Source: a virus
Strand: one strand, 5' to 3'
DNA length: 29,604 bases
IMG/VR virus record: IMGVR_UViG_3300020204_000265
Span: 1-29,604 of that record
Shown: positions 5,109-26,936 of the stretch, piece after piece
How positions within the stretch are numbered: the stretch's first letter is position 1
How the letters are laid out: every line of letters begins with the position of its first letter
Notes under the pieces: generated by a model
Database searches by the model: none
What the model saw: the letters and a program-made list of their open reading frames with translations, nothing else
What the model was told of the DNA's origin: nothing
Program-made: the position numbers and the translations under genes

Positions 5109-6245
5109 ATGACAAATCCAACTATTTGTTTTGCTACTATTTGCAAAAATGAATCTCACATCATTAAAAAAACCTTAGAATCTATATACAAGTATATAAG
5201 TTATTGGGTTATATGTGATACTGGCTCTACAGATAATACTAGAGAAATAATTACTGAGTTTTTTAAAGAAAAAAACATACCAGGAGAACTCCACATTGAT
5301 GAGTTCAAAGATTTTGGTTATAATAAGAGCTTATTAATGAAACGAGCTCAACATAAAGCAGATTACATACTACAAATAGATGCTGATGATCCATTAATTG
5401 GTGAGTTTAAATTTACTCAACAAGATATTGGTTATGATGTCTATTTAATCAATGTAAAACGAGGAATAACTAGTTATAAAGCATTAACTTTATTTAATGC
5501 TAAACGTTTATGGAAGTTTTGTAGTGTGGCTCACACAGCTATTAAATCTATAGATAGACCTGAATTTACAACAGGGGATTTAACCCATTATGACTTTTAT
5601 GTCTCATCAGAGGATATAGGAGCTAGAAAAGCAGATCCTGAAAAATATCTTAAAGATGCTAAAAAACTTAAAAAACAGTTTTTTGATACTCTAATTGATG
5701 ATCCAGATAATTTAAATAATCGCTCTATTTTCTATATAGCTCAAAGCTATATGGATTATGGAATGTTTGAGGAAGCAATTAGATGGTGTAGATTGTATAC
5801 TAAAATAAGAGGCAATTGGCTTGAAGAACACTTTGAAGCTCAACTAAGAATAGCTAATTGTTATATTAGACTAGATGGTGATTCTAATTTAATAGAACAA
5901 GAAATGAAAAAAGCAATTGATATATACCCAGATAGAGCAGAACCATATTTTATTTTAGGTAATTACTTTAATAATAAAAAACAATCAGAAAAAGCATATT
6001 ATTATCTTAAACAAGCTCAATCTAAAGATGTAGAATTAGCTAAACAAAAATATATACTATTTATAAATGAATTTAACTATGGTAAGTATGTAAATGATGA
6101 ACTATCAGTAGCTTGTTATTGGACAAATAAATATAAAGAAGGATTAAAATTATTAGAGGAAATTATTGATGATCCTAAGTATAATAGTGATAAAGAACGA
6201 TTATTAAATAATATTAATTTTTTTAAACAAAAACTTAATGAATGA
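5109..6245 (+). CDS. Family 2 glycosyltransferase with C-terminal TPR repeats
   Basis: This is a 378-residue protein. The N-terminal GT-A domain shows the family 2 start ICFATICKNE, the nucleotide-sugar binding run CDTGSTDNT at residues 36-44 and the metal-binding DADD at 91-94. From about residue 199 it becomes helical with tetratricopeptide-type repeats (for example AEPYFILGNYF followed by KAYYYLKQAQ), which usually bind a protein partner or acceptor. This GT2-TPR arrangement occurs in bacterial and phage sugar-modifying enzymes. The stop overlaps the start of the next glycosyltransferase (ATGA), indicating translational coupling. Acceptor unknown; a fibre protein is a reasonable guess from context. 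Confidence 0.85.
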   Translation: MTNPTICFATICKNESHIIKKTLESIYKYISYWVICDTGSTDNTREIITEFFKEKNIPGELHIDEFKDFGYNKSLLMKRAQHKADYILQIDADDPLIGEFKFTQQDIGYDVYLINVKRGITSYKALTLFNAKRLWKFCSVAHTAIKSIDRPEFTTGDLTHYDFYVSSEDIGARKADPEKYLKDAKKLKKQFFDTLIDDPDNLNNRSIFYIAQSYMDYGMFEEAIRWCRLYTKIRGNWLEEHFEAQLRIANCYIRLDGDSNLIEQEMKKAIDIYPDRAEPYFILGNYFNNKKQSEKAYYYLKQAQSKDVELAKQKYILFINEFNYGKYVNDELSVACYWTNKYKEGLKLLEEIIDDPKYNSDKERLLNNINFFKQKLNE

Positions 6246-8062
6246 TAAAACTACATTTATTAACTCGTTGTACTAGATTAAGTAATTTAAGAATTATTAG
6301 AGACACTGTATTTCCTAGTCCTCTAGATGTAACATGGCATATAATTTTTGACACTAGCATTGTAAAAAGTTTTAATAATGTTTTAATAGATGAGTTAAAA
6401 CAACTACCAACAAAAATATATTATATAGAAAGTAATGGTACTGATTATTTATATCCTCAATTAAGTGATATTATAAACACTATTGATGAAGGATTTGTAA
6501 GTATATTAGATGATGATAACATATTACATTCTGATTTTTATAATAGTATTGAAAAAATAATAAAACAATACCCAGATAAAAAGGCATTTGTTTACAAACA
6601 ATATATTGGTGGTAAAGATTTCACAGGTTTAAAAGTTAGAGACATAGGTCCTGAGCATATGAAACTACAACATATAGATTCAGCTCAATATATAATTGAG
6701 GTTAATTTATATAAAACAAGACAATATGAGGAAGGATATGATGCTGATGGTAGATTTATAGAACCATTTTATAAAGAACATGCTGATAAATTTCATTTTA
6801 TAGATGAGGTATTATGTTATTATAATCATTTAACATTCTCTAGAAAAGCCAACTTACCAAGAATATTATATATAGGTCCAGGTTTACCAGAGCTTAGATC
6901 TAAACAACTTTATAATTATGAAGAAGATAAATTAGATATTTTTTACACTACAAATGATAACAATATTGATTCTATTTTAATAAATTATAATCCAAATGCT
7001 ATTGTTACTGTAGGTGAAAGTGACTCTGATTTCCCTAACTTATATAGACAACCAGCTGAAGTAAGAAAAAAATGGATTCATGTAAAAGATGTTGATTTAG
7101 ATTTAGGTACTAAAGCGTATTATTGTGCTATGATTCAAATGTTAGAAGATAATACATCTGAATTAATTTCATTTTTTACCCCAATTTATAAAACTGGAGA
7201 AAAATTATATAGAACATATCAATCTTTAGTAGACCAAACTTATATAAATTGGGAATGGGTTTTAATAGATGACTCTACAGATGAATTAACTACAAAAATA
7301 GCTGAAGAATTAGCCGCTAAAGATTATAGAATAAAAGTATATAGTTTTAAAGAAAAAAGTAATGGTAATATTGGTGATGTAAAATATAAAGCAGCTATGT
7401 TATGTAGAGGTTATTTACTAGCTGAGTTAGATCATGATGATATTTTAACTGAAAGATGTACTGAGTATCTACACATGGCTAGTCAAGCATATCCAGATGC
7501 TGGCTTCTTTTTCACAGATTGGGCTGAAGTAAGTGAAACAATGACACCATATACTTATGAAGATGGATTTGGATTAGGATATGGAAAGTATAGAGATGAA
7601 AATTATAAAGGACATATAATAAAAGTTTGTGATCAACATAATTTAAATCCAAAAACAATTCGTCATATTGTTGGTACACCAAACCATGTTAGAGCTTGGC
7701 GTAAAGATGTTTACTTAAGTTTAGGTGGACATAATAGAAATTTAACAATAGCAGATGATTATGAATTAATGATAAGAACATTTTTAAAAACTAAGTTTTG
7801 TAAAATACCAATACTTGGTTATCTTCAATTTATATATCTTCACCAAAATAAAACCGACGAAAATAGTCAGGCTGACTCAAGATCAGATATTCAAAGACGT
7901 ATTAGAACTATAGCTAATTTCTATAATGAAGCTATTAAAAAAAGATTTGAAGAATTAGGTGTTGAAGACTGGGCTTATTTAACTAATGGATGTGATATAC
8001 AAGATATACCTAGTAGATATGGTAATCAAGAAAACTATGTAAATTATATATTTAAAATTTAA
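6242..8062 (+). CDS. Two-domain glycosyltransferase
   Basis: This is a 606-residue protein with two GT-A-like halves. The first (about 1-210) begins IKLHLLTRCTR and has an LDDDN metal site near residue 90. The second (about 305-560) is a canonical family 2 domain: ISFFTPIYKTGEKLYRTYQS, then QTYINWEWVLIDDSTD, then ELDHDD near residue 398. About 95 residues between them contain a possible Rossmann-like segment (RILYIGPGLPELRSK), perhaps the remnant of another transferase module. It is translationally coupled to the upstream GT by a 4-base overlap. The pair could add two or three successive sugars to one acceptor. A bifunctional enzyme is likely but sugar identities cannot be inferred. Confidence 0.85.
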   Translation: MIKLHLLTRCTRLSNLRIIRDTVFPSPLDVTWHIIFDTSIVKSFNNVLIDELKQLPTKIYYIESNGTDYLYPQLSDIINTIDEGFVSILDDDNILHSDFYNSIEKIIKQYPDKKAFVYKQYIGGKDFTGLKVRDIGPEHMKLQHIDSAQYIIEVNLYKTRQYEEGYDADGRFIEPFYKEHADKFHFIDEVLCYYNHLTFSRKANLPRILYIGPGLPELRSKQLYNYEEDKLDIFYTTNDNNIDSILINYNPNAIVTVGESDSDFPNLYRQPAEVRKKWIHVKDVDLDLGTKAYYCAMIQMLEDNTSELISFFTPIYKTGEKLYRTYQSLVDQTYINWEWVLIDDSTDELTTKIAEELAAKDYRIKVYSFKEKSNGNIGDVKYKAAMLCRGYLLAELDHDDILTERCTEYLHMASQAYPDAGFFFTDWAEVSETMTPYTYEDGFGLGYGKYRDENYKGHIIKVCDQHNLNPKTIRHIVGTPNHVRAWRKDVYLSLGGHNRNLTIADDYELMIRTFLKTKFCKIPILGYLQFIYLHQNKTDENSQADSRSDIQRRIRTIANFYNEAIKKRFEELGVEDWAYLTNGCDIQDIPSRYGNQENYVNYIFKI

Positions 8063-8065
8063 AAC

Positions 8066-8653
8066 ATGTCATTTTTATTTTCAAAAGAACAAAATGATCC
8101 TCAAAATTACTATTATTATACAAATGGTTTTAGTGATGAAGAATTAGATAAAGTTTACAAAGATGTAGCTACATTAAACTTTGAACAAGCATCAACTATA
8201 GATTCAAAATCAAATGATAAAGAAATTAGATCATCATCTGTTAAATGGATACCAAATAATCAACAATGGAATTGGTTATATTTTAAATTAATGGATATGG
8301 CTGTTCAGGCCAACAACTCTTTATGGCATTTTGATTTATACTCAGTACAAGATTTAATTCAGTATACTGAATACTATGCTACAGAAAATGGACATTATAC
8401 ATGGCATCAAGATTTTGGACCAGGTAATCCTTCATTAAGAAAAATATCACTTACTGTTCAATTATCAAGACCTGATGAATATGAAGGTGGTGATTTAGAG
8501 TATTGGAAAGGGGGAAATGAAATTATACAAGCACCTAAGAACAAAGGATTAGTATTTATATTTCCTTCATATATGATGCACCGTGTAACACCAGTGACTA
8601 AAGGAACACGTCGCTCATTTGTTTTATGGATAGGTGGAGAACATTATAGATAA
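8066..8653 (+). CDS. Prolyl-hydroxylase-like (PKHD-type) Fe(II)/2-oxoglutarate oxygenase
   Basis: This is a 195-residue protein, close to the usual length of the PKHD/P4H catalytic domain. Iron ligands are H114-x-D116 (TWHQDFG) and H172 (MMHRVTPV). The 2-oxoglutarate-binding Arg is R182 or R183 in the GTRRSFVLW block, and YEGGDLEYW is the typical strand between them. It starts 3 bases after the glycosyltransferase stop, so it is part of the same transcription unit. Members of this group hydroxylate prolyl residues or small molecules. Candidate substrates encoded nearby are Pro residues of the collagen array or the Pro-Thr linker; that link is inference. A second, distinct oxygenase lies upstream in the same cassette. 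Confidence 0.85.
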   Translation: MSFLFSKEQNDPQNYYYYTNGFSDEELDKVYKDVATLNFEQASTIDSKSNDKEIRSSSVKWIPNNQQWNWLYFKLMDMAVQANNSLWHFDLYSVQDLIQYTEYYATENGHYTWHQDFGPGNPSLRKISLTVQLSRPDEYEGGDLEYWKGGNEIIQAPKNKGLVFIFPSYMMHRVTPVTKGTRRSFVLWIGGEHYR

Positions 8654-9293: not shown

Positions 9294-11054
9294 ATGGCGC
9301 AAGAAACATTAATTTCTCCAGGTGTATTAACCCGTGAGAATGATTTATCTCAAATAACCCAATTACCAATCACTGTTGGCTTAGCTTTAGTTGGTCCAAC
9401 TGTTAAAGGTAAACCATACATTCCAACTGTAGTCACTTCATATAGTGATTATATTAATCGATTTGGTGGTTCATTTGTTAGTGGTGGAGCTAATTATGAA
9501 TTTTTAACTTCAATAGCCGCTTATAATTACTTTCAACAAGGTGGTGAGTCAATTTTGGTAACAAAAGTTGTTAGTGGTTCATTTACTCCATCATCAGCTA
9601 GTATTTTCATATCTGGATCAACTTCTACAGCTTCATTTGTTTTAGAAACATTAAATGTTGGTTTATTTACTGACAATAGTGGATCTGTTTTAAGTAATGG
9701 TGGTTTAAGTAGTGGATCTTCAGAAAATGTTAGATTTGAAATAACAAATGTTAATCAAACTCAAGGTACATTTACTGTAGTAATTCGTCGTGGTGATGAT
9801 AATGAACTTAATAAAGTTGTATTAGAAACATTCACTAATGTATCTTTAGATCCAAACCAACCAAACTATATAGCATCAGCAATAGGTGATCAATTAAAAG
9901 CATTATCCTATGATTCTGATATGGGTGGATTTTATATTGATATAGATGGTGATTATCCAAATAATAGTCGCTATGTAAGAGTTAAATCTGTAAATTCTCC
10001 AACTCCAAATTATTTTGATAATACTGGTAATGTAGCAGTTAATGGTTTACCAGGTGCTTTAATTGGATTAAGCTATTCAGCTTCATTACCATTTGCTGGA
10101 ACTGGATCTTATGGTGGATCATTTGATGGTGGAGTAGGTGATGATATTCCATTTATTGGAGGTACATTATTTAAAACTATTTCAACTAAAACTCAAGGTA
10201 TACCAGCCTCCAGCTATTTAACAGCTAGTAATATTTTAGCTAATAAAGATGAATATGATTATGAATTATTAGTAACTCCAGGTTTAATTAAATCTTTACA
10301 CTCATCAGCTGTAACTAGTTTTATAACTAATGCTGAAAGTAGAGGTGATTATTTTTATATCACTGACTTAAAAGAATATAATAGTACTTTAACAAGTGTT
10401 GTAAATTCAGCCGCCACATTAAATACTAACTATGCTGGTGCTTATTGGCCATGGGTTCAAGTAGTGTCTCAAGAAACTGGTAAATTAGTATTTGTTCCTG
10501 CTTCAACAATTATGGCTGGTGTTTATGCTTTTAATGATAATGTAAGTGCTGAATGGTTTGCACCTGCTGGTTTAAATAGAGGTGGATTAGGTGGTGTTAT
10601 TCAAGCTGAAAGAAAGTTATCTCCAACAAATCGTGATAATTTATATGCTGGTAAAGTAAATCCAATTGCTACCTTCCCTAATGTTGGTGTGACTGCATTT
10701 GGTCAGAAAACATTACAACAAAAAGCTAGTGCTTTAGATAGAATTAATGTTCGTCGTTTATTAATTGCTCTTAAGAGATTTATTGGTAATGTAGCTAAAA
10801 CATTAATATTTGAACAAAATACAACTGTGACAAGAAACCGTTTCTTATCTCAAGTTACTCCATACTTAGAAAGTGTACAACAACGTCAAGGTTTATTTGC
10901 TTTTAAAGTAGTAATGGATGAAACAAATAACACTCCAGATGTGATTGATCGTAATCAATTAGTAGGACAAATCTTCTTACAACCAACTCGTACAGCTGAA
11001 TTTATCCTATTAGATTTCAATATCTTACCAACTGGTGTAGAATTTGGTTCATAA
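9294..11054 (+). CDS. gp18: Tail sheath protein (gp18-like)
   Basis: This is a 586-residue protein (T4 gp18 is about 659). It polymerises around the tail tube and contracts on infection. The N-terminus (LISPGVLTRENDLSQ) is the signature of the T4-type sheath family, and the opening includes the GLALVGPTVKGKPYIPT block. The C-terminal core from about residue 480 holds ALKRFIGNVAKTLIFEQN, PYLESVQQRQGLFAFKVV and FLQPTRTAEFI, the part that forms inter-subunit connections in known sheaths. The middle is Ser/Thr/Gly-rich and variable, as expected for the surface-exposed domain. It is the first gene after a terminator, with an ATATTTAT motif 24 bases before the start, and is followed by the tube gene as in T4. 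Confidence 0.95.
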   Translation: MAQETLISPGVLTRENDLSQITQLPITVGLALVGPTVKGKPYIPTVVTSYSDYINRFGGSFVSGGANYEFLTSIAAYNYFQQGGESILVTKVVSGSFTPSSASIFISGSTSTASFVLETLNVGLFTDNSGSVLSNGGLSSGSSENVRFEITNVNQTQGTFTVVIRRGDDNELNKVVLETFTNVSLDPNQPNYIASAIGDQLKALSYDSDMGGFYIDIDGDYPNNSRYVRVKSVNSPTPNYFDNTGNVAVNGLPGALIGLSYSASLPFAGTGSYGGSFDGGVGDDIPFIGGTLFKTISTKTQGIPASSYLTASNILANKDEYDYELLVTPGLIKSLHSSAVTSFITNAESRGDYFYITDLKEYNSTLTSVVNSAATLNTNYAGAYWPWVQVVSQETGKLVFVPASTIMAGVYAFNDNVSAEWFAPAGLNRGGLGGVIQAERKLSPTNRDNLYAGKVNPIATFPNVGVTAFGQKTLQQKASALDRINVRRLLIALKRFIGNVAKTLIFEQNTTVTRNRFLSQVTPYLESVQQRQGLFAFKVVMDETNNTPDVIDRNQLVGQIFLQPTRTAEFILLDFNILPTGVEFGS

Positions 11055-11094: not shown

Positions 11095-11580
11095 ATGGCA
11101 GTATTAGATCCAAATGAAATAATGTTCACCGCATTTGAACCTAAAGTTCAGAATCGCTTTTTAATGTATATTGATGGTGTACCAACTTATTTAGTTAAAA
11201 AAGCTTCAACTCCATCATTTAATGCTGGTGAGATTGTGTTAGATCATATCAATGTTTACCGTAAAGTAAAAGGTAAAGTTCGTTGGAATGATATGACAAT
11301 TGAAATGTATGACCCTGTAACCCCAAGTGGTGCTCAAGCTATAATGGAATGGGCTCGTTTAGCTCATGAATCAGTAACTGGTCGTGATGGTTATTCTGAT
11401 TTCTATAAGAAAGATTTACGTTTAGACATTTTAGGTCCAGTTGGTGATGTAGTAGGTGAATGGATTATTAAAGGTGCCTATTGTAAAGAAGCTAACTTTG
11501 GTGAGTATGATTGGGCTAATGAAACTTATATCAGCATCAGTGTAACTGTAGCTATGGATTATTGCATATTGAACTACTAA
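11095..11580 (+). CDS. gp19: Tail tube protein (gp19-like)
   Basis: This is a 161-residue protein, nearly the length of T4 gp19 (163). It forms the stacked hexameric rings of the inner tail tube through which DNA passes. Recognisable blocks are the N-terminal FTAFEPKVQNRFLMYIDG, the central KGKVRWNDMTIEMYDPV and the C-terminal IIKGAYCKEANFGEYDW. It directly follows the sheath gene, has its own upstream motif and ends before a terminator-like hairpin, consistent with high separate expression of this abundant protein. Confidence 0.95.
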   Translation: MAVLDPNEIMFTAFEPKVQNRFLMYIDGVPTYLVKKASTPSFNAGEIVLDHINVYRKVKGKVRWNDMTIEMYDPVTPSGAQAIMEWARLAHESVTGRDGYSDFYKKDLRLDILGPVGDVVGEWIIKGAYCKEANFGEYDWANETYISISVTVAMDYCILNY

Positions 11581-11667: not shown

Positions 11668-12432
11668 ATGGAAGAAAAATTTAAGTATCCAACTGAGCAA
11701 ATTGAATTACCATCTAAAGGTTTACTTTATCCTGAATCATCTCCATTGTCTAAAGGAGTAATTGAAATGAAGTATATGACTGCTAAAGAAGAAGATATTT
11801 TAACTAACTCTAACTTTATTAGACAAGGTACAGTTATTGATAAATTATTACAGTCAATGATTATCACACCAATTGATTATAATGATTTATTAAATGGGGA
11901 TAAAAATGCTATATTAATAGCAGCTCGTATTTTAGGTTATGGTAAAGATTATGAATTTATGTATAATAATCCTAATACAGGTGCTCAAGAAAAAGCAACA
12001 ATTGATTTAAGTCAGGTTGAATCAAAACCACTAGATGAGTCTTTGTTTACTCGTGGTAAAAATGAATTTGATTTTCAGTTACCGTTTTCTAAAGTAATGG
12101 TGACATTTAAGTTATTAACCCATAGTGATGAAAAAAAGATTGATAGAGAAATTGAAGGATTGAAAAAAATTAACCCACAATCAGTAGCCACTATAACAAC
12201 TCGTTTGAAACATTTAATCACATCTATTAATGGTGACAGAGAAGTAACTACAATACGTAGTTTTGCTGAGAATATGTTAGCTAGAGATGTAAAAGCTTTA
12301 CGTGATCATATTAATAAAATAACACCAGATGTTGACTTAAAAGTTAATGCTGTTAAAGAAAATGGTGATGTGGTGGAGGGCATCGAATTACCAATTGGTA
12401 TTAGCTTTTTTTGGCCTGACACCGAGCTATAA
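11668..12432 (+). CDS. gp26: Baseplate hub / tail assembly protein (T4 gp26-like)
   Basis: This is a 254-residue protein; T4 gp26 is 208. Family hallmarks are the N-terminal IELPSKGLLYPESSPLSKG and MKYMTAKEEDILTNSNFI, then GTVIDKLLQSMI, which match the T4 baseplate protein family (PF12322). It is followed by a second ORF in another frame and then the tape measure gene, which is the position held by the G/GT tail chaperones in other phages. The C-terminal codons GISFFW lie on a T7 run (12406-12412) where a ribosome could change frame. Ending normally, translation stops at 12432 with WPDTEL. A chaperone role for this phage is inference from position. Confidence 0.85.
   Translation: MEEKFKYPTEQIELPSKGLLYPESSPLSKGVIEMKYMTAKEEDILTNSNFIRQGTVIDKLLQSMIITPIDYNDLLNGDKNAILIAARILGYGKDYEFMYNNPNTGAQEKATIDLSQVESKPLDESLFTRGKNEFDFQLPFSKVMVTFKLLTHSDEKKIDREIEGLKKINPQSVATITTRLKHLITSINGDREVTTIRSFAENMLARDVKALRDHINKITPDVDLKVNAVKENGDVVEGIELPIGISFFWPDTEL
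12406..12412 (+). other. Putative programmed frameshift site (T7)
   Basis: Seven T residues occupy codons TTT-TTT-T of the upstream frame. Phe-tRNA can re-pair after a -2 or +1 slip. The 0-frame stop is 18 bases downstream of the run. Confidence 0.55.
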
Positions 12433-12676
12433 AAATATATTATTAGAAGAAATTCACACATTGTGTTATTTTGGCCAAGGTGGATTTACTTATGATGAGG
12501 TATATAGTATGCCTATTAGATACAGACATTATCATTTAAAGAAGGTAATTGAGCATTTAGAAAAACAAGCGGAAGTTATGAATAAATCATTCACTAATGA
12601 TGAAAAATCCAAAACTCCATTAGGTCCTCCATTAAAACCAGATTTTACAACCAAACCAAAAGCGCCCAAAAAATAG
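12413..12676 (+). CDS. C-terminal extension ORF of the gp26-like protein, probably expressed by frameshift
   Basis: This ORF is in the +1 frame relative to the gp26-like gene. Residues that look like real coding start at GLTPSYKNILLEEIH and continue with FTYDEVYSMPIRYRHYHLKK and a Pro/Lys-rich tail. The frame is open back to an ATG at 12347, but that part (MVMWWRAS) runs antiparallel in sense to the well-conserved gp26-like end and looks like out-of-frame noise. The boundary sits on TTTTTTT (12406-12412), so a +1 or -2 slip would fuse 248 residues of the first ORF to about 87 of this one (335-336 in all). This mirrors the GT tail chaperone arrangement upstream of tape measure genes. Independent initiation at 12347-12368 remains possible. 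Confidence 0.6.
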   Translation, partial: GLTPSYKNILLEEIHTLCYFGQGGFTYDEVYSMPIRYRHYHLKKVIEHLEKQAEVMNKSFTNDEKSKTPLGPPLKPDFTTKPKAPKK

Positions 12677-12686
12677 GGCGCTTTCA
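12659..12686 (+). terminator. Hairpin terminator with the upstream stop codon in its loop
   Basis: AAAGCGCCC pairs perfectly with GGGCGCTTT around an A-rich 8-base loop. The TAG stop of the preceding ORF falls at the end of the loop and first stem base. The following tract (CATATTTATT) is T-rich but broken, so termination may be partial. Confidence 0.6.
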
Positions 12687-12714: not shown

Positions 12715-15117
12715 ATGGCTTTAGATCCACAAGCGCAACAAAACGTAAATGACTTTCAGTTATATGTGAAAGATACATTGATGTCCATCAGTGCCAAGTT
12801 TTCAGAAACAATGGCTGAAGCTGTTGAAGACGCGTTTGATAATCTTGATAAAAAGGTTATATCATCTGTTGAAAAAGATTTAACTAAAACTTTTAAGAGT
12901 TTAGTCAAAGCTTCTGATGATATTTCTCTTAACATGTTTAAATTAAAACAAGGTTTAATTGGATCTAAAGATTTAGCTAAACAACAAGTTGGTATAGAGG
13001 AAAAAAGAGCATTATTAGAAGCTAGAATAGCCCATGCTAGAATGATGAGGGCTAAATTTGATGAAAAAGATGTAGCGGCTGCTAGAGAAGCCTTAGACTA
13101 CCAAGAACAAATATTAGCAGAAGCTATTGCTTATAATGCTACAATTGAAAAAAGACTTGGTATAACAGGTAAATTAGTTGGAGCATTAGGAAAAATACCT
13201 GGTATAGGTCAATTCATAAAAGCAGATGAATTAGAAACTAAGTTACGAAGTGCTGCGGCTAATGGCGCTGGTCAGTTTAAAATTATGGGACTGGCGGCTA
13301 AAAGTGCTTTTGGTCAGATAACTAAAGGATTAACAGATCCATTATTTTTATTAACAGCTCAAATAGCTCTATTTAAGAAAATTTTTGATCTTAATAAAGA
13401 CATAAATGAAAGACAAACTGCCCAACAACGAGCTTTAGGAATATCAGCCGATCAATCACAAAGATTAGCTCAAAGTACATTTGAATACGCTAACGCTACT
13501 AATGATGTTTTTGTCACTGAAAAACGAATAACAGAAGGTAGAAATAAATTAAATGAATTATTAGGTACTAGTGTAGTATACACTAATCAATCAGTTGAAG
13601 GTTTTGAACGTTTAACTCACTATTATGGTGTGAGTGAAGATAGTGCTGCTAAATTAACTGAATTAGCTACTCAACAAGGACAATCAACTAAAGATATTCT
13701 TAACTCTACTATTAGAGTAGCTAATGAACAAAAAAGACAGTTTGGTGGCACTATGAGCTACCAAAAAGTATTACAAAAAGTAAGTTCTACTGGTGGTGAA
13801 ATATTAACCAAATTTAAAGGTAATACTCAGGAATTAGCTAAAGCAGTAATGAACGCTGATAGATTGGGTTTAAATTTAGAACAAGTTAATAAAATAGGTG
13901 AATCATTACTTGATTTTGAGTCATCAATTGAAAATGAACTTAAGGCAGAATTATTAACTGGTAAACAAATAAATTTAGAAAGAGCCAGAGCAGCCGCTTT
14001 ATCAGGTGACTTAGCTAAATTAACAACAGAAATAGCTAACCAAACAGGTGGTATAGCTAATTTTCAAAGAATGAATGTTATACAACAGAAAGCATACGCT
14101 GAAGCTTTTGGTATGACAGCTGCTGAGATGGGTGATATGCTTCGTAAAAGAGAATTTGAAAATAAATTAGGAGCAGATGCTAAAAAATCAGCTGAAGAAC
14201 AACTTAAATTAGCTGAAAAAAGAGGTATTAAAATAGAGGATAGTGTTAGAAAAGAACTTGAAGCTAAATCATTAGCAGATAAACAAAAATATGTTTTTGA
14301 AAAATTAGCTGAAGTTTTAGGAAAATTAACATCAGGCCCTATGCAAAAGTTTATGAGCTTACTAAGTAAAGCTTTAGGGTTTGTAGAAAAAATATTTAGT
14401 TTTTTCGGAAAAATGACTGGTGGTCCTTTAGGTGATGCTTTAGGAGCCGCTATTATAGGAGCTCCATTATTAATAGGTGGTGTGAGGATGTTAGTAGGAT
14501 CTTTAAAAACAGCTGTGTTAGGTAAACCATCAGGTAGATTTGGTGATCCAATTCATGTCACTGATGATGGTGGGGCTGGAGGAGGAGGTGGTATCACAGA
14601 TATGCTTGGTGGTAAGAAAAGTATATTTAGTGGAAGAGGAAAAGGAATGTTAAGGGGAGGATTTGGTAGAGGTAAAAATATGACTTTAGCTAGATCACTT
14701 AGAGGAGGAATGAAAGGATTTGGTATAGGAGCAGCCATAGGCATTGGTGCTGATTTAGTGGCTAGCCAAATGGATGAAGGTGCAACTAAAGATACTGTAG
14801 AAGGTATTGGTACAACAGCTTCATATGCTGGTACAGGTGCTTTAATAGGTTCAGTTATACCAGGTGTTGGTACAGCTGTAGGAGCTGTTGTAGGTGGTTT
14901 AGCAGGAGCTATGACATCATTATTCACAGCTGAAGAAAATAGAATAAAACGACAAGAAGCTAGAGAGAAAACAGAAGAAGATCAAAATAAACGTACAAAT
15001 GAATTATTAGAGCAATTAGCTATTAGACCAAATGTATTAAATGTTGGTGGTAAAACTATTATGGAATTTAACACAGCAGCTGATCAATATGGTACACGAG
15101 GTAGTTCATTTAATTAA
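12715..15117 (+). CDS. Tail tape measure protein
   Basis: This is an 800-residue protein, likely the tape measure that sets tail length (functional counterpart of T4 gp29). Residues 20-170 are mainly charged helix with coiled-coil character. Residues 170-560 are helical, with several Ala/Glu/Lys-rich stretches. Hydrophobic segments lie at about 571-600, 670-685 and 705-738, and a Gly-rich basic stretch at about 620-670. Gly/Ala-rich hydrophobic segments near the C-terminus are common in tape measures and may insert in the host membrane during DNA ejection. Position directly after the putative chaperone pair and before baseplate genes is the standard order. No lytic domain is seen. Confidence 0.8.
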   Translation: MALDPQAQQNVNDFQLYVKDTLMSISAKFSETMAEAVEDAFDNLDKKVISSVEKDLTKTFKSLVKASDDISLNMFKLKQGLIGSKDLAKQQVGIEEKRALLEARIAHARMMRAKFDEKDVAAAREALDYQEQILAEAIAYNATIEKRLGITGKLVGALGKIPGIGQFIKADELETKLRSAAANGAGQFKIMGLAAKSAFGQITKGLTDPLFLLTAQIALFKKIFDLNKDINERQTAQQRALGISADQSQRLAQSTFEYANATNDVFVTEKRITEGRNKLNELLGTSVVYTNQSVEGFERLTHYYGVSEDSAAKLTELATQQGQSTKDILNSTIRVANEQKRQFGGTMSYQKVLQKVSSTGGEILTKFKGNTQELAKAVMNADRLGLNLEQVNKIGESLLDFESSIENELKAELLTGKQINLERARAAALSGDLAKLTTEIANQTGGIANFQRMNVIQQKAYAEAFGMTAAEMGDMLRKREFENKLGADAKKSAEEQLKLAEKRGIKIEDSVRKELEAKSLADKQKYVFEKLAEVLGKLTSGPMQKFMSLLSKALGFVEKIFSFFGKMTGGPLGDALGAAIIGAPLLIGGVRMLVGSLKTAVLGKPSGRFGDPIHVTDDGGAGGGGGITDMLGGKKSIFSGRGKGMLRGGFGRGKNMTLARSLRGGMKGFGIGAAIGIGADLVASQMDEGATKDTVEGIGTTASYAGTGALIGSVIPGVGTAVGAVVGGLAGAMTSLFTAEENRIKRQEAREKTEEDQNKRTNELLEQLAIRPNVLNVGGKTIMEFNTAADQYGTRGSSFN

Positions 15118-24814: not shown

Positions 24815-25924
24815 ATGGCTAAGTCCACTAAAAGTGTAAATGCAAGTGTATCACAAGCAATTAAAGGTACATTTGATCTTGATAAGTTTAAGAAAACTAA
24901 AAAGTTAGATCAATCATCTAACTTTAAAACCCAAAAGTGGATTCCATTTTCACCAACTGTACAAGATGCTTTATCTATACCAGGTGTACCTATGGGGCAC
25001 ATTACTATAGCTAGAGGTGGTTCAGATACAGGTAAAACAACATTAATGATTGAAACAGCAGTGAATGCTCAGAAAATGGGCATTCTACCTGTTTTCATTA
25101 TTACTGAAATGAAATGGGATTTTGCTCATGCTCAGAAAATGGGATTTCAATGTGAAGCTGAAGCTGATAAAGACACAGGTGAAATAGTAAATTATAAAGG
25201 TTTTTTCTTATACATTGATAGGTCAATTCTTAATTCAATTGAAGATGTATCAGCTTTTATGGCTGATATTTTAGATGAGCAAAAGAAAGGTAATTTACCT
25301 CATGATTTATTATTTCTATGGGATTCAGTAGGTTCTATACCATGTGACATGAGTATTGAACAAGGTAAAAATAATCCAATGTGGAATGCTGGAGCAATGG
25401 CTACACAATTTGGTAATTTTATTAATCAGAAAATTCCATTATCACGTAAAGAATCATATCAATTTACTAATACATTCTTTGTGATTAACAAAACAGGTGT
25501 TCAACCAGCTTTAACTCCTATGAGTCAACCTCGTATGACTAATAAAGGTGGTAATACAATGTATTGGGATGCTTCAATTGTAATTACATTTGGTAATGTT
25601 ACAAATAGTGGTACAAGTAAGATTCATGCTCAACATAAAGGTAAAAAAGTAGAATTTGCTAAACGTACTAAAATCGCTATCGATAAAATACATGCTGATT
25701 GTGGAATTGCAACCACATCAACAGTAATTGTTACACCTCATGGATTCATTCCAGATGATAAAGATAATGAGAAAGCTTATAAAGCAGCTCATGCTCATGA
25801 ATGGTTTGGTGAGGGAGTAAAAATTGATGAGATAAAAGTTACTGAGGATAATAGTGAATGGGAAGAAAGTAGTAAAATATCTCCAATGATTGAAATCGAT
25901 AATGATGATGAACAAGACGTTTAA
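24815..25924 (+). CDS. uvsX: RecA-like recombinase (UvsX)
   Basis: This is a 369-residue protein (T4 UvsX is 391). It forms the strand-exchange filament for recombination-dependent replication. Walker A is GGSDTGKTT at residues 68-76, an unusual form with Asp where RecA has Ser. Walker B is LLFLWDSVGS with D170. ITEMKWDFAHAQKMG follows the first strand as in UvsX, and the DNA-binding loop region is near MSIEQGKNNPMWNAGAMA. The end is acidic (EIDNDDEQDV). It starts 5 bases after gp32 and its 3' end overlaps the rnh start by 23 bases, so the three genes are translationally linked. Confidence 0.9.
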   Translation: MAKSTKSVNASVSQAIKGTFDLDKFKKTKKLDQSSNFKTQKWIPFSPTVQDALSIPGVPMGHITIARGGSDTGKTTLMIETAVNAQKMGILPVFIITEMKWDFAHAQKMGFQCEAEADKDTGEIVNYKGFFLYIDRSILNSIEDVSAFMADILDEQKKGNLPHDLLFLWDSVGSIPCDMSIEQGKNNPMWNAGAMATQFGNFINQKIPLSRKESYQFTNTFFVINKTGVQPALTPMSQPRMTNKGGNTMYWDASIVITFGNVTNSGTSKIHAQHKGKKVEFAKRTKIAIDKIHADCGIATTSTVIVTPHGFIPDDKDNEKAYKAAHAHEWFGEGVKIDEIKVTEDNSEWEESSKISPMIEIDNDDEQDV

Positions 25925-26936
25925 AGATATACTATCTAATATTAAGAATACTAAGCAAGAAGCCTTGTATTTAAATAGTAAAGTACTCTTAATAGACTCA
26001 ATGAATACATTTCTAAGAAGTTTTGCCATGATTAACCATATGAATCCAAGTGGAGCCCACATTGGTGGGCTCACTGGGTTCTTAAAATCAATTGGCTTTG
26101 CTATTCGTCATATTAAACCTACTAGAGTTATTTTAATATTTGATGGTAATGGTAGTACTACTAATAAAAAGAATTTATATTCAGAATATAAAGCACATAG
26201 AAAACTACAACGTATAACTAATTGGGATGGATTTGATGGTAAAGAAGATGAATCTGCTTCTATTGAGAACCAAATGTTACGTTTAGTAGAGTATTTAAAG
26301 TGTCTACCTATTGACTTATTATCTATTGATAAAATAGAAGCTGATGATGTTATAGGTTATATAACAAATAAATTAGATAGTGAAGTATATATAATGTCAG
26401 CTGACCAAGATTTTTTACAATTAGTAAATAATAGAGTAACAGTGTATTCACCTATTAAAAAGAAATTTTATACACCTAAATTAGTAAAGGAAGATTATGG
26501 TTTATATCCTCAAAACTTTATTAATAAAAAAATATTAATGGGTGATAATTCAGATAATATACCTGGTGTTAAAGGATTAGGACCTAAAAAATTATTTAAA
26601 TTATTTCCAGAATTAGAAACTAATATAGATATCACTTTAGAAAGTTTATTAGCTAAGTCTGAGGAACTAATTAATGAACATGGCTTATATGGTAATATAG
26701 TTAACTTTAAAAAACAGTTACTTATTAATCAGCAACTAATGGATTTGTCCAATCCAGATTTACCAGAAGACAGTTTAGAAGAAATAGAACAAGTATTAAC
26801 AAATGAACCTAATAGATTAGATAAATTACATTTCATAAAGCTTTATAATGAGGATAGATTAGGTAATTCAATTCCTAATGTAGAGATTTGGCTTAATGAA
26901 ATTTTTTCTTATCTTCAAGTTTATAAATTAAAATAG
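25902..26936 (+). CDS. rnh: RNase H / 5'-3' exonuclease (T4 Rnh-like)
   Basis: About 344 residues from the first of three consecutive ATG codons at 25902; the frame is open further upstream only to a TTG. It removes RNA primers and flaps from lagging-strand fragments. FEN-family metal ligands are visible: LLIDSMNTFLRSF (D32), ILIFDGNG (D81), EADDVIGY (E146, D148, D149), SADQDF (D168, D170) and MGDNSDNIPGVKG (D215, D218). The last is followed by the helix-hairpin-helix GLGPKKLFKLF. T4 Rnh is 305 residues. It overlaps the uvsX 3' end and is followed 2 bases later by the helicase gene, matching the replication role. Confidence 0.9.
   Translation: MMMNKTFKDILSNIKNTKQEALYLNSKVLLIDSMNTFLRSFAMINHMNPSGAHIGGLTGFLKSIGFAIRHIKPTRVILIFDGNGSTTNKKNLYSEYKAHRKLQRITNWDGFDGKEDESASIENQMLRLVEYLKCLPIDLLSIDKIEADDVIGYITNKLDSEVYIMSADQDFLQLVNNRVTVYSPIKKKFYTPKLVKEDYGLYPQNFINKKILMGDNSDNIPGVKGLGPKKLFKLFPELETNIDITLESLLAKSEELINEHGLYGNIVNFKKQLLINQQLMDLSNPDLPEDSLEEIEQVLTNEPNRLDKLHFIKLYNEDRLGNSIPNVEIWLNEIFSYLQVYKLK

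Follow-up and report, generated by a model that had tools for sequence, protein, structure and literature searches.

The window, by which we mean the whole stretch of 29,604 nt analysed here (positions 1 to 29,604 of IMG/VR record IMGVR_UViG_3300020204_000265, a 29.6 kb fragment), contains an overlapping pair of open reading frames, designated A and B, between the tail tube and tape measure genes, in synteny with the immuto phages. The features of this region are as follows.

9294..11054, plus strand: tail sheath protein (phrog_23, E=1.2e-68).
11095..11580, plus strand: tail tube protein (phrog_4542, E=1.4e-23).
11668..12432, plus strand: ORF A, 254 aa, gp26 family (PF12322, phrog_150); predicted tail assembly chaperone, short form (TAC-N).
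12347..12412, plus strand: upstream stretch of the B frame, including the ATG at 12347; read as non-coding in the B frame (stops in relatives, no conserved start).
12403..12414, plus strand: putative frameshift site AGC_TTT_TTT_TGG, comprising a codon ending in C, the T7 run (12406-12412) and TGG; read directly from the sequence.
12413..12676, plus strand: B domain, 87 codons plus stop, predicted to extend the long form (TAC-NC, about 335 aa) at its C-terminus; based on alignment, HMM and the +1 frame being open in relatives.
12659..12684, plus strand: terminator-like hairpin, AAAGCGCCC-AAAAAATA-GGGCGCTTT, over the end of B and 5' of the tape measure gene.
12715..15117, plus strand: probable tape measure protein, 800 aa (position, length, synteny with the Flavobacterium immuto phage).

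ORF A ends in GGT ATT AGC TTT TTT TGG CCT GAC ACC GAG CTA TAA, giving a protein with the C-terminus ISFFWPDTEL, and ORF B (12347-12676) lies at +1 relative to it (codon starts 1 vs 2 mod 3), the T7 run being read as AGC TTT TTT TGG in the A frame and as GCT TTT TTT GGC in the B frame. The open stretch of the +1 frame spans 12341 to 12676, with 87 residues from the first GGC after the T7 run, and fusion of A and B by a +1 shift would yield 335 residues. A gap of 282 bases separates ORF A from an 800-aa ORF located where a tape measure gene would be expected; this ORF itself matched no family, and its syntenic counterpart in the Flavobacterium immuto phage is annotated as a tail tape measure protein. 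The hairpin at 12659-12684 is GC-rich and bidirectional, and a stable fold (MFE below -10) was present at this position in 70 of 94 relatives. Elsewhere in the window, two glycosyltransferase family 2 proteins and one 2OG-Fe(II) oxygenase are encoded 5' of the tail sheath gene (5109-8653), and a RecA-like ORF (24815-25924) overlaps the next ORF (25890-26936), whose sole start is TTG.

ORF A is a member of the T4 gp26 family, as a previous sequence-only reading of the window had proposed. Specifically, it matched PF12322 (T4_baseplate) with 38.1 bits (cutoff 24.5, E=1.7e-9) and phrog_150 (baseplate hub) with E=2e-15; this was the one match within the 29.6 kb fragment, no second full-length gp26-like gene being found there. 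The AlphaFold2 model of ORF A was confident (pLDDT 89) and resembled baseplate-hub proteins predicted for phages, that of SP-15 among them. A PDB sequence search with ORF A gave no match, and a Foldseek search of the PDB with the model returned nothing at E<=0.001; the highest probability among the matches listed, only 0.16, was that of the HK97 chaperone 2ob9, a resemblance that may be taken only as a hint. In addition, ORF A did not match lambda-type chaperone profiles in the libraries scanned.

When folded alone, the B domain was helical with moderate confidence (pLDDT 73); in relatives its C-terminus is frequently KAPKK or KASKK. T4 gp51 consists of the same N domain as gp26 plus about 48 residues, and hhalign placed B on this extension in the expected register, with a weak probability of 0.5-4.5%; the B profile run directly against the single T4 gp51 gave no match. 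We also ran the B HMM over 1140 six-frame ORFs from distant phages, and four of the best five matches outside the training loci were frames following gp26-like genes (in LR756511, GXN1, LIS04 and Atu_ph07; E 0.016 to 0.87). Based on these comparisons, B is likely to be homologous to the gp51 extension.

Relatives of the locus were collected by scanning viral contigs with ORF A, which gave 17 loci, and with a 13-sequence profile, which gave 80; a separate DNA scan of viral contigs with the 15-mer CTTTTTTTGGCCTGA gave at least 120 stretches, 114 of those listed being new. Judged by a 180-base window around the site, these represent 95 distinct sequences from the profile search and at least 85 more from the 15-mer scan. 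We found that the +1 relation was kept in 99 of 99 loci from the unbiased protein search. All 114 new 15-mer matches listed were the same locus, with A recognized by HMM in frame 0 and B at +1 in 113 of them, the one remaining listed match having A only. The relation was also present in seven of seven loci from metagenome-assembled genomes, several of which were labelled Flavobacteriales, Flavobacteriaceae, Winogradskyella or Saprospiraceae, bringing the distinct loci to at least about 180 in total; the isolates Flavobacterium phage immuto and Microcystis phage Mel-JY01 belong to the same group. After the slip position the B frame stays open for 72-105 codons in 96 of 96 complete loci, and its alignment shows invariant L, G, G, Y, P and R residues, which, together with the retention of the +1 relation in all relatives, argues that the frame is more than a chance opening. 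No in-frame natural fusion of A and B was found; in a scan for six Ts in the same context, seven family members were present among the 120 matches listed, all with CTT TTT TGG and the +1 relation. The sequence-only reading had described a second frame at +1 running through the T7 run and had proposed comparing related phages; in that comparison the site, the frame relation and the overlap turned out to be conserved, and the 12347 start was not.

The constant feature of the site is a pyrimidine stretch of seven bases, nearly always YTTYTTY (the sole exception being a CTA in locus L020); the base in front of it is hardly ever T. Among 96 distinct genes, the first codon of the pair was TTT in all, whereas 17.5% of the other Phe codons were TTC, and the second was TTT (85), CTT (10) or CTA (1); as a Leu codon it was never TTA, although TTA is the commonest Leu codon. 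The codon before the run ended in C in 89 of 99 loci, where chance would give 20.8; for T, 58.4 loci were expected and one was observed. These statistics count related loci as independent, and their nominal significance is inflated. Synonymous codon identity was near expectation in both A and B and was raised only over the five or six codons of the site. Dual coding (WPD in frame 0, GLT at +1) can account for the frozen GGC CTG 3' of the run; it does not account for the TTT codons or for the C in front of them, since the fusion is made without reading them in the other frame. The T7 run that the earlier reading had taken as the site is not itself required, the seven-base pyrimidine stretch being what is retained.

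The natural variants bear on the direction of a slip. At TTT CTT T, TTT CTT C and TTT CTA T, which occur in relatives, the tRNA-Phe on the first codon could move from UUU to UUC at +1, and at CTT TTT TGG, found at at least seven further loci with the +1 relation still kept, as well as at the TTC TTT CGT of Streptococcus phage GXN1, the tRNA on the second codon could move to UUU or UUC, also at +1. A single rule, a +1 movement on UUU followed by a pyrimidine, would therefore cover all the variants. The site in the window is not a canonical X_XXY_YYZ heptamer with a second ORF at -1, since a C precedes the run and the second ORF is at +1; in most loci a stop soon ends the -1 frame. A base other than T before the run would be expected to prevent the tandem -1 slip to which a T run could otherwise give rise.

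The same fusion could be made by -2 slippage, which the earlier reading had left level with +1: the tRNA on the second codon (T4-6) would re-pair two bases back, adding an extra Phe, as in phage Mu, which uses such a shift (PMC5009743). Slippage of this kind is feasible on TTTTTTT, and the first codon is always TTT in the core family, but pairing would be poor at the TTT CTT sites and would fail in LR756508 (a CUA-reading tRNA on UUC) and in GXN1 (tRNA-Phe on UCU), which share the frame relation. Re-pairing across the natural variants thus favours +1, and we consider -2 unlikely.

Slippage of RNA polymerase on the T7 run, producing a share of transcripts with the frames joined, would fit the homopolymer present in most loci. 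However, the frame relation is also kept at the 10 of 96 sites with TTT CTT, which contain no run of more than three Ts (locus L029 has TTTCTTCTCCC), and at CTT TTT TGG, likewise a site with no long T run; we regard this explanation as very improbable.

Equally improbable is the production of B as a separate small protein, by reinitiation or coupling after A, for which the window offers the ATG at 12347 and for which there are annotation precedents, such small ORFs being annotated individually in a cyanophage and a Vibrio phage. We found no start codon of any kind (ATG, GTG or TTG) in the B frame 5' of the slip in 30 of 99 loci, and no ATG in 76 of 99. The first possible start within B mostly lies 32 or 36 residues past the slip, inside the conserved core. 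The upstream part of the B frame (MLLKKMVMWWRAS in the window), previously dismissed as noise, is indeed not conserved in relatives and is soon closed by a stop; it opens only past the position equivalent to the 12347 ATG in L003, and only 23-26 nt before the ORF A stop in L009 and L016. No relative had a conserved independent start for B or had the two frames separated without a slippery site, either of which the earlier reading had named as counting against it. Finally, although homopolymers are prone to sequencing errors, an error or a decayed gene is already excluded for practical purposes by the agreement among loci, at least about 180 of them distinct, that come from many projects and include isolate genomes as well as sites without a homopolymer; both domains are conserved.

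Taken together, these data suggest that ribosomes very probably slip forward by one base on the pyrimidine run near the end of the gp26-type gene. We consider it likely, with a probability of about 0.85, that one gene gives rise to two tail chaperones, TAC-N (254 aa) and TAC-NC (about 335 aa), by a +1 slip of tRNA-Phe in the P site. Most ribosomes would read ORF A to its stop, releasing TAC-N. In a minority, the tRNA-Phe (anticodon GAA) in the P site would slip by +1 on one of the UUU codons of UUU_UUU_U and re-pair with the overlapping UUU or UUC, reading would resume at GGC CUG, and the product would be TAC-NC of about 335 aa, with the junction SFF-GLT. If lambda G/GT is a guide, the N part may coat the tape measure protein, the gene for which is next downstream, and the C part may recruit the tail tube subunit. 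A role in tail assembly is indicated by the position of the gene, the predicted production of two forms and the T4 literature. The earlier interpretation as a frameshifted chaperone gene, having passed the conservation checks, is supported.

The site provides a YUU_Y codon able to re-pair at +1, as do bacterial prfB (CUU_U) and influenza PA-X (UUU_C), in which P-site slippage likewise takes place on YUU_Y. For PA-X, the +1 shift was shown by protein sequencing, and UUU_C +1 sites were predicted to form a class in which the neighbouring codons are restricted (PMC3498833). In prfB and PA-X, however, the A site holds a rare codon or a stop, whereas in the window family the A-site codon is TGG in most loci or TTT, never a stop and with no obvious rare codon. 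We found no conserved RNA structure downstream (mean fold z -0.59; no synonymous conservation downstream). A Shine-Dalgarno (SD)-like motif lies close upstream in 21% of loci, compared with 12% elsewhere, and such an element is absent close to the site in the window; an SD stimulator does not seem to be a general feature. A third-position G in the third codon upstream (mostly GGG) is about fivefold over-represented, occurring in one third of loci, the window not being among them.

Lambda gpG/gpGT (Xu, Hendrix and Duda 2004) likewise comprise a short and a frameshift-extended form encoded between the tail tube and tape measure genes, but lambda uses a -1 shift on XXXYYYZ, whereas the window would use +1 on UUU_Y and has an N part of the T4 gp26 family. 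Frameshifted tail assembly chaperones have long been known, in -1, -2 and +1 versions, and T4 has been named as the exception to the conserved tail-gene frameshift (review PMC5009743). The chaperone pair of the HF1-group haloviruses, which are archaeal viruses, also shows a +1 relation, and the TTT-CGC motif with which its first gene ends has been proposed as a +1 site (PMC7230728). T4 gp26 and gp51 belong to the same family (PF12322) as ORF A, gp51 having a gp26-like N domain followed by a C extension that seems to resemble B, but in T4 they are two separate genes, whereas the window has one gene with a putative frameshift; the earlier remark that this is not a standard feature of T4 therefore holds, yet other phages of the gp26 family have -1 sites. 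A 2022 paper by Vladimirov, Gautam and Davidson, the source for gp26 and gp51 as tail assembly chaperones of T4-like phages, reportedly argues for a mechanism other than frameshifting. According to the PRFect paper (PMC10885494), which cites Vladimirov et al. 2022, certain T4-like phages have two genes instead, one short and one long, and a passage in PMC12846349 cites the same work for poly-T -1 sites in T4-like phages.

We found gp26-like genes ending in T_TTT_TTC with a C domain at -1 in PA5oct, Atu_ph07, L116, LR756511, S-RIM50, a KVP40-like Vibrio phage and Moby. These members have the same gene and the same FF position as the window but carry a canonical U_UUU_UUC with the C domain at -1, in place of C_UUU_YUU and +1. 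In a cyanophage (L121:3235-3372) and a Vibrio phage (L123:3274-3441), the small ORFs that carry the annotation gp51 or baseplate hub assembly catalyst probably represent no more than the C domain that the preceding gp26 gene would reach by a -1 frameshift. In Kuttervirus PM10 (L122, near 3242), the gp26-like gene ends in GAG ATT TTC ATT TAA with a C-domain-like -1 frame and no canonical heptamer. SP-15, LIS04 and GXN1 also show the +1 relation; in these three (L021, L022 and L023), an NCC CGA just past the FF codons, CCC_CGA in GXN1, is a second possible +1 site. Overall, members of the gp26 family from cyanophages, KVP40-like phages and jumbo phages have -1 sites, those of T-even phages are two genes, and the +1 relation is seen here. 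In a tree of the N domains, the two-gene rows formed one clade, the -1 rows were scattered, and LR756511, on a long branch, fell among the 19 +1 rows, which for this reason required two changes. The simplest account of these sequences would be an ancestral -1 arrangement, a gene duplication in the T-even phages and a switch to +1 on the branch of the window.

The +1 gp26 branch with this motif seems to be undescribed, though Vladimirov et al. 2022 may hold more. In the immuto and Mel-JY01 records, the long chaperone would be missing or annotated as a stray small ORF. The site would offer a +1 shift at which neither a stop codon nor an SD or RNA structure is apparent, and the at least roughly 180 natural variants make rules for direction on homopolymers (T before the run for -1, C for +1) testable. 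We give even odds to a broader proposal, in which the gp26 family has three interchangeable solutions to the stoichiometry of the two forms (-1, +1 and gene duplication) and the +1 branch, mostly of Bacteroidota phages, represents a new class of structure-free +1 sites (C_UUU_YUU_Y), the base before the run setting the direction by excluding -1 slippage. Whereas T4 is listed as the exception, a large branch of the T4 gp26 family would use frameshifting, and in the rarer +1 direction.
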